The notes beneath the pieces were generated by a model, which saw nothing but the letters and a program-made list of their open reading frames with translations, had not been told where the DNA came from and ran no database searches. Shown piece by piece: positions 19,228-40,064 of a stretch of DNA of 41,280 bases. The translations under genes were made by a program, and so were the position numbers. The DNA is from a virus. Where the stretch lies: IMG/VR virus record IMGVR_UViG_3300025769_000268, positions 1-41,280 of that record; one strand, given 5' to 3'. The first letter of the stretch is position 1. Every line of letters starts with the position of its first letter.

Positions 19228-20514
19228 ATGAAAAAAACTTTATTAGCTATTTGTATATCAATCGCATCAGTATCTCAAGCTGATGTTACTTATGTAGATG
19301 ACGTAGCAGATATTATAAATAATAACTGTGTTGTGTGTCATCGTCAGGGTGGCATAGGTCCAATGCAGTTTGAAACATATGAGCAGGTACGTCCGTGGAG
19401 TCCTTTAATACAGATTAAAGTAGCCAATCGTGAGATGCCTCCCTATGCTTATGATAAAGAAATAGGTATACAAGAACTGCATGGCGATTGGAGATTAGAA
19501 CAAGAAGAGATAGATACAATAGTAGAGTGGGTTAATACTGGCTCAGAGTACGGCAATAGGGATGTAGCTCTAGCACCTTTGGTACTACCAGATCCTAGTC
19601 AGTGGAACTTCTATGCGGATTTAGGAGAGCCTACAGTGGTCATCCCTTCTACGCCTATAGATATACCTGCTAGTGGAAATGATTTGTGGCATAAACATAA
19701 TGTGCCAAGTGGTTTAGCAGAGGACAGATGCATTAAAGCTATTCAAGTTAAGCCAAGAGGCGAGGCTAAGAGTGTAGTACACCATGCTAATAGTAGTGTT
19801 ATTTTAAATGGTGAAAGATTTGGTATGCTCACAGAGTATGCTATGGGTAAGTGGGGTGAGGTAGTACCGGAGGGCGTGTGTCGTACTATACCTGCAAATG
19901 CAGAGATAGCATGGGACATTCACATGTTCCCCGGAGGTCTTGGAGCAATGGCTCCAGAATCTGTTATTGAGAATAACATCGTAGATATAGGCATGTGGTT
20001 ATATTCTCCAGAGGAATCTGAAGAACTTAAATACAAACAAGACTTAAAGCTGTATAGAATAAGCGACCAAGACGATATAGTTATCCCCCCTAATGGATAC
20101 TTAATGACACAAGGCTTTCATTCTTTTGATCATCCTGTACGGATAGATTCTTGGCAACCTCACGGTCATCTTAGAATGAATGCAGCTTCCTTTGAAATAT
20201 TCTATCCTGAAACTGGACGTACAGAACAAGTCAGTCAGGTATCTAACTGGAGCGCAACGTGGCATCACAGTCATATATATGAGCCAGACTTTGCACCGCT
20301 TCTTCCAACAGGAGCAGTCTTAGTACTAAAGCAATGGTATGACAACACAAAAGAAAACCCTAATAACCCCGACTCTGATATGTGGGTTATGGGTGGAAGC
20401 AGAACAGGCGATGAGATGACCCATGCTTGGATTGCTGTGACACATCTTGATGATAATAAATATCAAGAACTTTTAAACGAACGAAACAATAAAAGGATCG
20501 TAGCCAAAAAATGA
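19228..20514 (+). CDS. Exported haem c - copper type II monooxygenase-like protein 1 (428 aa)
   Basis: Residues 1-18 are a Sec signal peptide ending SVSQA. A c-type haem domain follows with CVVCH (C34, C37, H38) and MPP (M70) as probable distal ligand. From about residue 120 the protein resembles the two-domain copper fold of peptidylglycine/dopamine-type monooxygenases. It has an HH pair (H185-H186 in VVHHANSS), H232 in DIHMFPGG, PHGHLRM (H312, H314), the YDNTKENPNNPDSD segment, and M397 in GDEMTH. This is a plausible full set of CuH and CuM ligands. It would act in the periplasm and needs host cytochrome c maturation. AGGA lies 8 bases before the ATG. It starts a three-gene cassette with a lipoprotein and a paralogue. 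Substrate unknown. Confidence 0.8.
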   Translation: MKKTLLAICISIASVSQADVTYVDDVADIINNNCVVCHRQGGIGPMQFETYEQVRPWSPLIQIKVANREMPPYAYDKEIGIQELHGDWRLEQEEIDTIVEWVNTGSEYGNRDVALAPLVLPDPSQWNFYADLGEPTVVIPSTPIDIPASGNDLWHKHNVPSGLAEDRCIKAIQVKPRGEAKSVVHHANSSVILNGERFGMLTEYAMGKWGEVVPEGVCRTIPANAEIAWDIHMFPGGLGAMAPESVIENNIVDIGMWLYSPEESEELKYKQDLKLYRISDQDDIVIPPNGYLMTQGFHSFDHPVRIDSWQPHGHLRMNAASFEIFYPETGRTEQVSQVSNWSATWHHSHIYEPDFAPLLPTGAVLVLKQWYDNTKENPNNPDSDMWVMGGSRTGDEMTHAWIAVTHLDDNKYQELLNERNNKRIVAKK

Positions 20515-20697: not shown

Positions 20698-21936
20698 ATG
20701 AAAAAGTTAGCGGTGACGATTAGCAGCTTATTATTTGCAACAGCAGCTGCAGCACATGAAGATGTTAATATAGATTATGCCACTAGTGTAGCACCTATTC
20801 TTATAAAACAATGTCAAATGTGCCATCGAGAAAATGGCATAGCACCGTGGGCAATGAGTAACTACCAAATAGTACAGGGCTTTGCACCTGCTATAAAAGA
20901 AGCGATTGAATCTAAACGTATGCCTCCGGGACAAATTAATCCTATATATCGTGATGATATTATAAATCATAGAACTTTAAGTCATACAGAAATAGAGACA
21001 CTTATAGCATGGATTGATGCAGGTACGCCAGTAGAAGGGAACAGTGATCCTTTAACAGAAACTGTTTACTCTCCTTCAGCATGGGTACATGGTGAGCCTG
21101 ATATGATTATTGAAGTACCGCCTCAAGAAATTCCTGCAGTTGGAACTCTTGGTCCTAATGCTATCCCTTACAGATACACAAAAGTAGATTTAGGTTTAAC
21201 AGAAGATAAGTGGTTACGTGGCTCAGAGTTTCTCCCAAGTGAGCCAACTGTAATGCATCACATGTTAAACACAGTTTCTATACAAGGCGAGAGAACAAAT
21301 CTTCTTGGAGCAGCAGGTGAGAGTCAAGAAGATTTAAACTACGCTAGTGTTAGTGCTTATGTCCCCGGAGGTACTCCTGATTTTTATGATGAGAACACTG
21401 GCGGTCTACTACGTGCAGGTTCAGTTGTTAACTTACAATTACATTACACACCTGATGGTACAGCTAGAACAGACCAAGCAAGGATAGGGCTTTATTTCCA
21501 TGATGAAGGTGTAGTGCCTCAAGAAAGAATGGCAGGGGGATGTGCCTGTATATTCCCTGATACTTGGACACCAATACCTCCCTTTGATCCTAACTTTGTA
21601 CAGACAGCAGAGATACAACTTGAACAAGATGTAAATCTTCATACGTTCTTACCTCACATGCACTTTCGTGGCAAGAGTATGAAAGCTACAGCTTACTATC
21701 CTGATGGGACTTGGGAAGAACTAATTGACATTCCTAAGTATGAATATGCGTGGCAGCTTTCATACACATGGAAAGAGCCTAAGTATATGCCTAAAGGAAC
21801 TAGACTATTTGTAGAAGGAGCTTTTGATAACTCAGCTGAAAATAAAATGAATCCTGATCCTAGTAGAGAAGTACCGTGGGGGCAGATGTCAGAGGATGAA
21901 ATGTTCTTCGGGGCATTTACTTGGAAAAATTTATAA
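20698..21936 (+). CDS. Exported haem c - copper type II monooxygenase-like protein 2 (412 aa)
   Basis: A signal peptide (MKKLAVTISSLLFATAAAA) precedes a c-type haem domain with CQMCH (C39, C42, H43) and MPP (M75). The copper part shows the cleaner family match. It has VMHHML (H187-H188), LQLHYTP (H249), PHMHFRGKSM (H320, H322), the FDNSAENKMNPDPS motif near 377-389, and a DEM near the C terminus (M402). These correspond to the CuH (His-His-His) and CuM (His-x-His plus Met) sites of PHM-like enzymes. The domain pairing is known from bacterial chromosomes, such as planctomycetes and some gammaproteobacteria. The paralogue upstream is diverged, so this is not a recent duplication. AGGAG precedes the ATG in a leader almost identical to that of the next gene. 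Confidence 0.85.
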   Translation: MKKLAVTISSLLFATAAAAHEDVNIDYATSVAPILIKQCQMCHRENGIAPWAMSNYQIVQGFAPAIKEAIESKRMPPGQINPIYRDDIINHRTLSHTEIETLIAWIDAGTPVEGNSDPLTETVYSPSAWVHGEPDMIIEVPPQEIPAVGTLGPNAIPYRYTKVDLGLTEDKWLRGSEFLPSEPTVMHHMLNTVSIQGERTNLLGAAGESQEDLNYASVSAYVPGGTPDFYDENTGGLLRAGSVVNLQLHYTPDGTARTDQARIGLYFHDEGVVPQERMAGGCACIFPDTWTPIPPFDPNFVQTAEIQLEQDVNLHTFLPHMHFRGKSMKATAYYPDGTWEELIDIPKYEYAWQLSYTWKEPKYMPKGTRLFVEGAFDNSAENKMNPDPSREVPWGQMSEDEMFFGAFTWKNL

Positions 21937-36987: not shown

Positions 36988-37194
36988 TTAATTAACTGCA
37001 GTTATAAAGCCATCATACATTGTTACTTCAGCAAAAAATTCTCTCTTATGCCCTGTTAAGTGAGGTCTATTACAACCTACTAACTTACCTGTAGGTCTAT
37101 ATTCCTCACCAAATAAAGAAGTTTCTCTGTAGTTTAAGCGTTCCCCGATCATAGTTTTTAATTCTTTCTTAGTTGGGTAATCAAATATTAACAT
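36988..37194 (-). CDS. Conserved small phage protein (68 aa)
   Basis: The pattern MLIFDYPTKKELKTMIGERL, TSLFGEEYRPTGKLVGCNRP and HKREFFAEVTM matches a small beta protein common in phages of many hosts, without known function. Short intergenic distances place it in the early operon. Confidence 0.65.
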   Translation of the reverse strand: MLIFDYPTKKELKTMIGERLNYRETSLFGEEYRPTGKLVGCNRPHLTGHKREFFAEVTMYDGFITAVN

Positions 37195-38138: not shown

Positions 38139-38185
38139 TTTGCCAAGCCCTCCGTTGTTCGCTGTCGTATTTTTAAATGTAAAAG

Positions 38186-38287
38186 AAAAACTATTTTGTT
38201 GTTCTGCTCCTTAAAATAAAAAATCTTTCTCACCAAAGGGACGAAAGGTTTTTTATGCGCTGCAGATGTAACAACAAAATAGTTTTT
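38186..38287. repeat. Nested inverted repeats (18-bp outer, 12-bp inner stem)
   Basis: AAAAACTATTTTGTTGTT at 38186-38203 is the exact reverse complement of 38270-38287. Inside lies a second stem, AAAAAATCTTTC paired with GAAAGGTTTTTT (one wobble pair) around a 13-base loop. Together they make a large hairpin or cruciform in both DNA and RNA. Confidence 0.85.
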
Positions 38288-38321
38288 ATTTTTAATAACC
38301 TTTTATAATATAAATTTCTAT

Positions 38322-38356
38322 AAATAAAAAAAATCCCCACTTAAAAAGCAGGGATT
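38322..38356 (-). terminator. Rho-independent terminator after the 130-residue early gene
   Basis: On the minus strand, AATCCCTGC and GTGGGGATT form a 9-bp stem (two wobble pairs) around a TTTTTAA loop, followed by a run of eight T. It lies 17 bases past the stop of the gene ending at 38373. Confidence 0.88.
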
Positions 38357-38372
38357 CTTTGTAGTGAGAAGC

Positions 38373-38765
38373 TTACTTGGTAAGCTCTTGAAGCGTTAGG
38401 CCTTTGCCGTAACTCCAGAAACTGTCCATGACTTCTTTCTTTAGCTTTACTTTGTTACCTTTTATCTTCTTCGGATTAGAAAATATCTGGAAGAATGCTT
38501 TACCGGAGATTGTGTTATCTTTGGAAACCTTTCCAATTATAGTACCTCGCAATCTGCTGTATATTCTTCCAGTATATTTTCGTTGAATCGTTGGATTCTC
38601 TTCAAGGAGTGTTGAAGTAGCATTGTAAGCTACGCAGTTAATCCATCCCCAACCGTTGAAGACTGCTGAGTCTTCAGAGTCTTTCTGGTCTAGCTTGTTA
38701 TCTAATAATGATTTCTTAACAAAAGTTTCTATAGTCATGTACTGCTTATTTGGCTGTGTGTTCAT
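38373..38765 (-). CDS. Early hypothetical protein with a decayed inverted copy nearby (130 aa)
   Basis: AAGGAT precedes the ATG. The protein has NGWGWINCVAYNAT near 37-50, a basic beta-like middle (RKYTGRIYSRLRGTIIGKVS) and KLKKEVMDSFWSYGKGL near the C terminus. It is the first gene reached from the minus-strand promoter at 39576-39604 and has its own terminator, so it may be the earliest transcribed unit. A diverged, internally deleted, stop-riddled copy lies on the opposite strand from 38841 to 39110. No family recognised. Strong early expression of small proteins often serves host takeover, but that is speculation here. Confidence 0.7.
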   Translation of the reverse strand: MNTQPNKQYMTIETFVKKSLLDNKLDQKDSEDSAVFNGWGWINCVAYNATSTLLEENPTIQRKYTGRIYSRLRGTIIGKVSKDNTISGKAFFQIFSNPKKIKGNKVKLKKEVMDSFWSYGKGLTLQELTK

Positions 38766-38772
38766 GGTTATA

Positions 38773-38855
38773 TCCTTTTAAGTTAATGTTATAAGGAAAT
38801 TAAAGTTCCTCACAAAGTTTGGGACTTTTTATTTACGCCAATTAACTTAAAAGGA
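38773..38855. repeat. 15-bp inverted repeat at the axis of the gene/pseudogene palindrome
   Basis: TCCTTTTAAGTTAAT (38773-38787) is the exact reverse complement of ATTAACTTAAAAGGA (38841-38855). These are the leader and ribosome-site segments of the early gene and of its inverted copy, so the similarity begins at the axis. Confidence 0.9.
38802..38830 (+). terminator. Terminator-like hairpin between gene and inverted copy
   Basis: AAAGTTCC (38802-38809) pairs with GGGACTTT (38821-38828, one wobble) over an 11-base loop, followed by TTATTT on the plus strand. Stem is AT-rich, so its strength is doubtful; it could also be only the centre of the inverted repeat. Confidence 0.4.
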
Positions 38856-39110
38856 TGTTCATAACCATACACAGCCGAGTAAGGAGTACGCTTATGACTA
38901 TAGAGGCTTGAGTGATCATTATTAGATAACATGATCGACTTACTTAGACACATTCGGGGATGGATGTTGTAGCTGTTATACAATGCTACTTCAGCGCGGA
39001 ACCCCTTTAAGCTAAAGAAAGATGTTATGTTTCTGGAGTTTAAGGAGCCTAACGCCCTGCTTAGATTATAAAATTCTCTGAAGAATCCCTGTGTATAACA
39101 ATGGGGATTT
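38841..39110 (+). pseudogene. Degenerate inverted copy of the 130-residue early gene
   Basis: Read on the plus strand, this stretch matches the minus-strand gene at 38373-38765 word for word in the same order: ACACAGCC (38869-38876), ATGACTATAGA (38894-38904), a 17-base block at 38915-38931, TACAATGCTACTTCA (38979-38993), AAGCTAAAGAAAGA (39009-39022), GTTTCTGGAGTT (39029-39040), GCCTAACGC (39047-39055) and the terminator arms AATCCC/GGGATT (39084-39089, 39104-39109). About 160 bases (codons about 53-106) are missing, frame is lost and the terminator T-run is gone. It encodes no protein. It is a fossil duplication or a retained structural element. Confidence 0.85.
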
Positions 39111-39188
39111 AGTCACTTATGCTTAGAAATTTATAAGCTCTTTTTAATATATATATAATAACTATTTAATATATTATGTTGTTGAATT

Positions 39189-39487
39189 CTTTAAAGTTCT
39201 TTGTAGCTTAATTGTTACTTAATAGACTCAAGAGTCTCTAGAATTCTCTGTAAACCTGATGTCAATCTCTGGAACTTTAAAGTCTCTGGAGTCTTTAAAG
39301 CATAAGTTCCTTACAGAGTTCTATATAGGTCTACTTTAAATGTCTAGATAGTATTCAATGACCTCCAGAGTTGTAAGGGGTACGCAGGAGGCCACTACCC
39401 CCCACTAGGGTATATTATAGTTGGTCTACATTTTAAAGGGTTCTAGAGTGTCAACCAGTTAGTCGCGGAACTTTAAAGTCTTTAAAG
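39189..39487. repeat. Array of CTTTAAAG palindromes
   Basis: Five exact copies lie at 39189-39196, 39275-39282, 39293-39300, 39471-39478 and 39480-39487, with near copies at about 39334, 39432 and 39520. Two lie inside a longer 15-base repeat, GGAACTTTAAAGTCT (39271-39285 and 39467-39481). The copies are irregularly spaced and self-complementary. Their place beside the terminase genes recalls the short-repeat arrays near the ends of T7-like genomes. Confidence 0.75.
39361..39410. other. GC-rich hairpin cluster in AT-rich surroundings
   Basis: GGGGTA (39377-39382) pairs with TACCCC (39396-39401); CCTCC (39362-39366) and GGAGG (39387-39391) form an alternative stem, and CCC-CACTA-GGG follows. 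Such mutually exclusive GC stems in an AT-rich control region could mark a cutting site or an RNA structure. Confidence 0.45.
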
Positions 39488-39575
39488 GTCTTCAGAGGAA
39501 GAGAACATCGTTCCCTGACCCTTTAAGGATTTGAGGGGGCTATGGGGATGTAGTGAACCCGGGTGGGTTATATAG

Positions 39576-39604
39576 ATTATACACCTAAATTATCATTTTG
39601 TCAA
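39576..39604 (-). promoter_or_regulatory. Consensus sigma-70 promoter for the leftward early genes
   Basis: On the minus strand TTGACA (39604-39599), a 17-base spacer and TATAAT (39581-39576) are both perfect hexamers. Transcription would begin near 39569 and run left through the repeat array and the inverted copy into the early genes. Confidence 0.9.
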
Positions 39605-39632: not shown

Positions 39633-39661
39633 TTGACAAATCGGAAAAATAACTGTATAAT
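39633..39661 (+). promoter_or_regulatory. Consensus sigma-70 promoter for the terminase operon
   Basis: TTGACA (39633-39638), a 17-base spacer and TATAAT (39656-39661) are perfect. The expected start near 39668 is only about four bases before the small terminase ATG at 39672, so the transcript would be nearly leaderless. Confidence 0.9.
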
Positions 39662-39671
39662 GTTGTATATT

Positions 39672-40064
39672 ATGAAAAAAGAATTAACAACTAAACAGCA
39701 GACTTTCTTAGACCATCTTGTACAAACAGGGGGTGATCCTAAAGAAGCAGCTAGGTTAGCAGGTTATTCCGAGAATGGACACTGGCAAGTCGTACACGCA
39801 CTCAAGAACGAGATTATAGACTTAGCCTCAAACATCCTCGCGCAATCCGCGCCTAAAGCAGCTATGAAACTTGTGGATATAATGGAGTCTAATAGTCCAG
39901 TTCCTCAAGCTAACATGCGTTTACAAGCTGCCCAGACTATCCTAGATAGAACAGGACTAGGTAAACAGGAAAGGATAGATGTTAATCATAAATTAGAAGG
40001 AGGATTGTTTATACTCCCTGCCAAAGAAGAGATTATTATAGATGCAAAAGCGGAGATCGAGTAG
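39672..40064 (+). CDS. terS: Small terminase subunit (130 aa)
   Basis: It recognises the packaging site and recruits the large subunit. The N terminus has the DNA-binding helix-turn-helix of many TerS proteins: KKELTTKQQTFLDHLVQTGG, then DPKEAARLAGYSE. A coiled region follows (ALKNEIIDLASNILAQSAPK) and a C-terminal RLQAAQTILDRTGLGKQERI motif typical of phage terminase small subunits. The frame is open upstream to 39633, but that part is the promoter, so ATG 39672 is chosen; an ATG at 39660 is also in frame. There is no ribosome site before 39672. The end overlaps the next gene by 23 bases. Confidence 0.8.
   Translation: MKKELTTKQQTFLDHLVQTGGDPKEAARLAGYSENGHWQVVHALKNEIIDLASNILAQSAPKAAMKLVDIMESNSPVPQANMRLQAAQTILDRTGLGKQERIDVNHKLEGGLFILPAKEEIIIDAKAEIE

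Follow-up and report, generated by a model that had tools for sequence, protein, structure and literature searches.

A phage gene and its inverted copy form the co-evolving arms of an imperfect kilobase hairpin in HMO-2011-type marine phages

The gene for a 130-residue phage protein, P0001, and a non-coding inverted copy next to it make up the opposite arms of a single imperfect hairpin; comparison among related phages shows that the copy tracks the gene by compensatory change. Because the copy follows the gene in this way, and because the bulges of the hairpin are partly kept, we infer that the locus is selected to fold as a single strand. We consider it probable that a folded-strand element is under selection here, whatever the molecule that folds.

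Results

A gene and its mirror image in the window

The window, by which we mean the whole 41,280-nucleotide stretch of DNA analysed, is a linear viral record with genes for DNA polymerase A, a primase-helicase and ribonucleotide reductase. In its small terminase it shares 35-57% identity with phages of Pelagibacter (HTVC115P, HTVC103P and HTVC033P), Roseobacter (CRP phages) and Puniceispirillum (HMO-2011). Judged by the small terminase and replication genes, the window phage is of the HMO-2011 type, and its relatives make SAR11, Rhodobacteraceae or similar marine bacteria the probable hosts. Elsewhere in the window, two phage genes, at 19228-20514 and 20698-21936, have weak matches, below Pfam cut-offs, to domains of the haem-binding/cytochrome and copper type II monooxygenase kinds, and are possible auxiliary metabolic genes.

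Among the leftward genes of the window, P0001 (38373-38765, minus strand) comes first. Its homologues have dN/dS values of 0.09-0.38, and we therefore regard it as a true gene whose protein is under purifying selection. The AlphaFold model is mainly helical and fairly confident (pLDDT 82-83), and Foldseek returned no match at E <= 0.001 among solved structures (PDB) or viral structures (BFVD). The protein has no Pfam, PHROG or PDB relative and no homologue in the annotated phage collection, and a profile of the L018/L031 type (A2) detected none in the genome contigs. The family alignment comprises 13 members.

When 38300-38800 was reverse-complemented and aligned locally to 38810-39140, the score was 75.2, against a mean of 18.1 (s.d. 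3.0, maximum 29.1) for 500 dinucleotide shuffles, so the inverted similarity that had been proposed from the sequence is real. The segment 38833-39135 matches 38309-38790 in inverted orientation with order preserved. Mirrored within it are the ribosome-binding region, which is a perfect 16-bp block (ATTAACTTAAAAGGAT), the start region, the terminator stem and about 20 bp further out. The alignment thus bears out two details of the original prediction, namely that the terminator stem is repeated in the copy and that about 160 bases are missing from its middle: the gene segment at roughly 38425-38582 (minus strand) has no counterpart in the right arm of the window-type lineage. A third detail, a perfect 15-bp inverted repeat at the axis, needs amendment; the repeat exists, as the 16-bp block, and a further stem-loop at 38802-38828 lies between the arms.

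Read on the + strand, the resulting rod has a left, coding arm at 38320-38795, most of which P0001 fills, a tip stem-loop at 38802-38828 (AAAGTTCC-TCACAAAGTTT-GGGACTTT) and a right, non-coding arm at 38833-39125; the arms were delimited by inverted alignment, and the left one also by folding. The intrinsic terminator of P0001 (38328-38360, minus strand) has a stem sequence that doubles as the base of the rod. A smaller hairpin adjoins the rod at 38178-38303 (+ strand). The rod dominates local folding in the 41-kb window: in a 160-nt scan, no folds are more exceptional than its tip (z about -9) and the small hairpin (z about -7). Counting against a folded-strand reading, about one third of the gene arm is unpartnered in the window-type lineage. 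In L018, L022, L031 and L034, whose rods are full length, the counterpart of this segment is mostly paired, and in the window 38481-38640, which covers most of it, folds independently (z about -4.5 to -4.9).

Occurrence among related phages

A small-terminase search gathered 80 loci at graded distance. P0001 homologues occur in the window and in 15 other viral contigs, and the inverted copy is present at the same position in all 16 of these gene-bearing records. Gene and rod span at least five divergent lineages at a fixed locus in HMO-2011-type marine phages. Rod length ranges from about 0.8 to 1.05 kb, and in L017/L018, L022, L031, L034 and L035 the copy is full length and the rods are about 1.0 kb; the original prediction, made from a copy with a gap, thus understated the case.

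Amplified DNA can yield palindromic chimeras, and the arrangement might for that reason be an artefact of assembly or amplification. We give this explanation almost no credence, because five contigs from other metagenomes carry the window arrangement with an identical junction at 97-100% identity, and ten further contigs carry the P0001 gene with their own diverged version of the copy.

Loci such as L036, L016, L021 and L023 have the same type of terminase and neither P0001 nor a rod, and no rod was found in the examined stretches of the isolates HTVC115P, HTVC103P, HTVC033P, HMO-2011, CRP-212 and CRP-2. A weak signal in HTVC115P was rejected as A+T-rich low complexity. In these four rod-less loci and in L027-L029, the same position holds another gene set, encoding proteins of 180-220 residues with the sequence MSNFDFATID or a close variant, which suggests that exchangeable modules occupy the position. 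Two other rod-less related phages carry near-perfect repeated inverted blocks around ACAACATCCTATA (L046, 1943-1977/3086-3120; L083, 5612-5866).

The two arms change together

Protein identity between rod-bearing lineages falls to about 25-40%, and each non-coding arm still matches its own gene. The gene arm of L018 scores 167.5 against its own right arm and 19.0 against that of L022; conversely, the gene arm of L022 scores 134.5 against its own right arm and 21.5 against that of L018. The two gene arms align with each other at 149.5, whereas the right arms align at 20, with no resemblance left. In L031 and L034 the own-arm scores are 163.5 and 143.5, and crosswise scores are about 80.

At the level of single sites, the other arm has changed so as to keep the pair in 93 of 127 partnered gene-arm changes between L018 and L022. 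Compensation in both arms accounts for 41 of 80 such changes between L031 and L034, 19 of 26 between the window and L015, and 25 of 29 between the window and L024. Alignments within a genome maximise matches and inflate these absolute counts, and the cross-arm comparison serves as the control. The compensated sites are single positions and short runs dispersed along the arm. L003/L012, a near relative of the window, shows such paired changes directly, concerted and clustered in both arms; L005/L013, with gene changes that lack a matching change in the copy, counts against the folded-strand reading.

These patterns contradict the earlier description of the copy as a decayed relic, since non-coding arms match their own genes across lineages and dozens of base pairs have changed on both sides. 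Nor was the event recent, given that lineages with proteins only about 25-40% identical carry matching arms and that the non-coding arms of L018 and L022 are no longer alike. Taken by itself, the window copy is non-coding and gapped, as would be expected if it were the neutrally decaying remnant of a recent inverted duplication, but we consider that explanation highly improbable in view of the concerted change and of the at least five divergent lineages whose copies each match their own gene. The other suggestion of the original prediction, that the copy is kept for its structure, for instance as a long hairpin, gains support from the co-variation of the arms and from the dominance of the local fold.

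A process other than selection on the fold could also keep the arms alike. In template-directed gene conversion, or quasi-palindrome correction at replication, pairing would be a by-product and the copy functionless. The clustered concerted changes of L003/L012 fit such a process, and there is a precedent in the long inverted repeats of C. elegans, which are apparently actively maintained (PMC1803023). However, the compensated sites are scattered in the way described above, and we regard conversion as improbable, in part because of the fine structure of the rods.

Helices, bulges and the tip motif

The rod folds have 66-80% of their bases paired and energies of -305 to -508 kcal/mol. Short bulges, frequently of 4-5 nt, break them into helices with a mean length of about 7 bp (longest 27). 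Conversion should remove such bulges and leave long perfect tracts. Moreover, sister lineages share bulge positions beyond chance in three of four tests, two on L018 and L022 (P about 0.007 and 0.09) and two on L031 and L034 (P about 0.006 and 0.007); no sharing was found when the rods furthest apart were compared (L018 or L022 versus L031 or L034). Since conversion would erase bulges and selection on the fold would keep them, the sharing favours selection.

The motif CTCRC is present in the tip of all eight rods, and a related tip motif occurs in the small hairpin at 38178-38303 and its counterparts in most lineages. Conversion alone predicts neither a shared tip motif nor the wobble asymmetry that is described below.

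The counterparts of the small hairpin (L018, 4355-4450; L022, 1830-1935; L031, 1850-1960; L034, 3015-3130) measure 90-125 nt. In these four loci the next gene, a conserved one of 68 residues (NYPTKK), has its ribosome-binding site and ATG within the stem. Its homologue in the window, phrog_37117, sits apart at 36988-37194, and the hairpin persists.

Strand preference and transcription signals

The + strand, antisense to the gene, gives the more stable fold in all eight rods (in L018, -508 versus -428 kcal/mol) and in five of six small hairpins. Isolated transition mismatches point the same way: with the near-duplicate L035 left out, 57 fit G-U pairs in the + strand and 17 do not (P = 3e-6 if equal numbers are expected, and 0.001 under a neutral-decay expectation estimated from base composition). 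Among polarised transitions in the right arm, those that keep + strand pairing occur at 0.074 per site and those that lose it at 0.033 (2.3-fold, P = 0.002), whereas transversion rates are equal for both classes. Mutational strand bias was rejected as the source of the asymmetry, because third positions of the other leftward genes are biased oppositely, the transversion rates are equal and leader folds have no consistent strand preference. From these sequence comparisons, it seems that + strand pairing matters or that pairing of the leftward mRNA is disfavoured. Alternatively, mRNA structure could be disfavoured while some need at the DNA level preserves the pairing. DNA hairpins likewise tolerate G-T pairs, and wobble of the G-U type therefore falls short of proving an RNA.

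The transcription signals point to the other strand. A leftward promoter, TTGACA-17-TATAAT (39576-39604, minus strand), reads through a conserved leader of about 450 nt (39126-39575, minus strand), the right arm, the tip and the gene. It is consensus or has one mismatch in seven of seven rod-bearing loci scanned (the one-mismatch version being that of L034/L035), and in every one it lies 446-650 nt to the right of the rod. No conserved rightward promoter was found before the rod in the loci scanned. The only conserved strong promoter near the rod is thus leftward and yields the minus strand, which counts against a + strand RNA.

It is conceivable, then, that the leftward mRNA is the functional molecule, in which the right arm would hide the ribosome-binding site and frame of P0001, as a giant attenuator or a self-silenced early message. 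The conserved promoter, the intrinsic terminator at the base of the rod and the position of the P0001 start region within the stem close to the tip would all suit this arrangement. We nevertheless think it unlikely, as the mismatches are enriched for those that break pairs in this strand (A-C rather than G-U) and the mRNA has the weaker fold in every one of the eight rods.

Blocks of the leader are strongly conserved, among them a 12-18-bp hairpin in which neither arm has been lost to change, and the leader block at 39361-39461 is common to phages without the rod. The mechanically listed start of the small terminase is a TTG at 39633, which falls within a perfect rightward promoter (TTGACA 39633-39638, TATAAT 39656-39661), and the true start is probably an ATG near 39672. 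The leftward and rightward promoters together form an imperfect inverted repeat.

Discussion

In the mechanism that we tentatively favour, a rod-shaped RNA would be made from the + strand, antisense to P0001. Its tip, with the CTCRC motif, may be recognised by a factor, for which the P0001 protein, encoded on the opposite strand, is a candidate, and the smaller neighbouring hairpin would be a second target of that factor. The interruptions between helices of about 7 bp would avoid a long perfect duplex, and so reduce exposure to RNase III and palindrome instability. On the strand comparisons, a + strand RNA as the folding molecule falls a little short of probable in our judgement. Folding of the + strand as single-stranded DNA or as a cruciform is possible but on the doubtful side, folding of the leftward mRNA is rather unlikely, and it is quite improbable that the locus has no folded-strand function. 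The rod would also be a clean natural example of the same bases being selected for both a protein and a kilobase fold.

Similarity to the C. elegans long inverted repeats is limited to the presence of inverted gene copies that stay alike. Those repeats are nearly perfect (PMC1803023), whereas the phage rod pairs imperfectly, conserves its bulges in part and has undergone compensatory change.

Searches for known RNAs gave little. Rfam returned no family at gathering score, and the weak hits in the window were to plant and animal microRNA hairpin models; cmscan found no ribozyme family in the window region (E <= 1) or in L018, L022 and L031 (gathering thresholds), and the covariance models of the giant RNAs GOLLD, ROOL and OLE had no match. 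Giant RNAs of the GOLLD/ROOL type, of which phage-linked cases exist, are multi-branched, non-coding and conserved in sequence. The phage rod, in contrast, is unbranched, one of its arms is coding and its sequence drifts freely. Its likeness to GOLLD and ROOL, which are long structured bacterial RNAs (PMC12286853), would lie in length and structure. In the open-access literature, which makes this weak evidence, we found no description of a gene-bearing hairpin with a co-evolving arm in a DNA virus.

By layout, the nearest analogues are HDV and the Obelisks, although the family, structure and Rfam searches revealed no homology. In HDV the rod strand is complementary to the coding strand, and the favoured strand of the phage rod is likewise complementary to the coding strand; unlike HDV, the phage rod is DNA-encoded. 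Obelisks are circular RNA replicons of about 1 kb that encode Oblin-1; most of their clades average below -300 kcal/mol, and they are found in the ocean too (PMC13096302, PMC11922315). Like them, the phage element is an unbranched, mostly base-paired rod of about 1 kb that has a single protein encoded inside it and a very low folding energy. The rod itself is, however, the only defining feature of Obelisks that we would recognise in it. The phage rod is encoded at a fixed locus in 16 DNA phage records, with no evidence of an RNA replicon; its favoured strand is antisense to the gene; and P0001 has 130 residues, compared with about 200 for Oblin-1, without detected similarity to any family searched (Pfam, PHROG, PDB, BFVD). 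By analogy, one could imagine a DNA phage whose genome is the template for a rod RNA of the delta or Obelisk kind and also encodes, on the opposite strand, the protein that binds this RNA, as a DNA-borne relative or point of origin of rod RNA agents, possibly amplified as RNA during infection; we regard this as a long shot. If the + strand is transcribed, the locus would tie DNA phages to a rod-shaped, protein-coding architecture hitherto known only from RNA agents.
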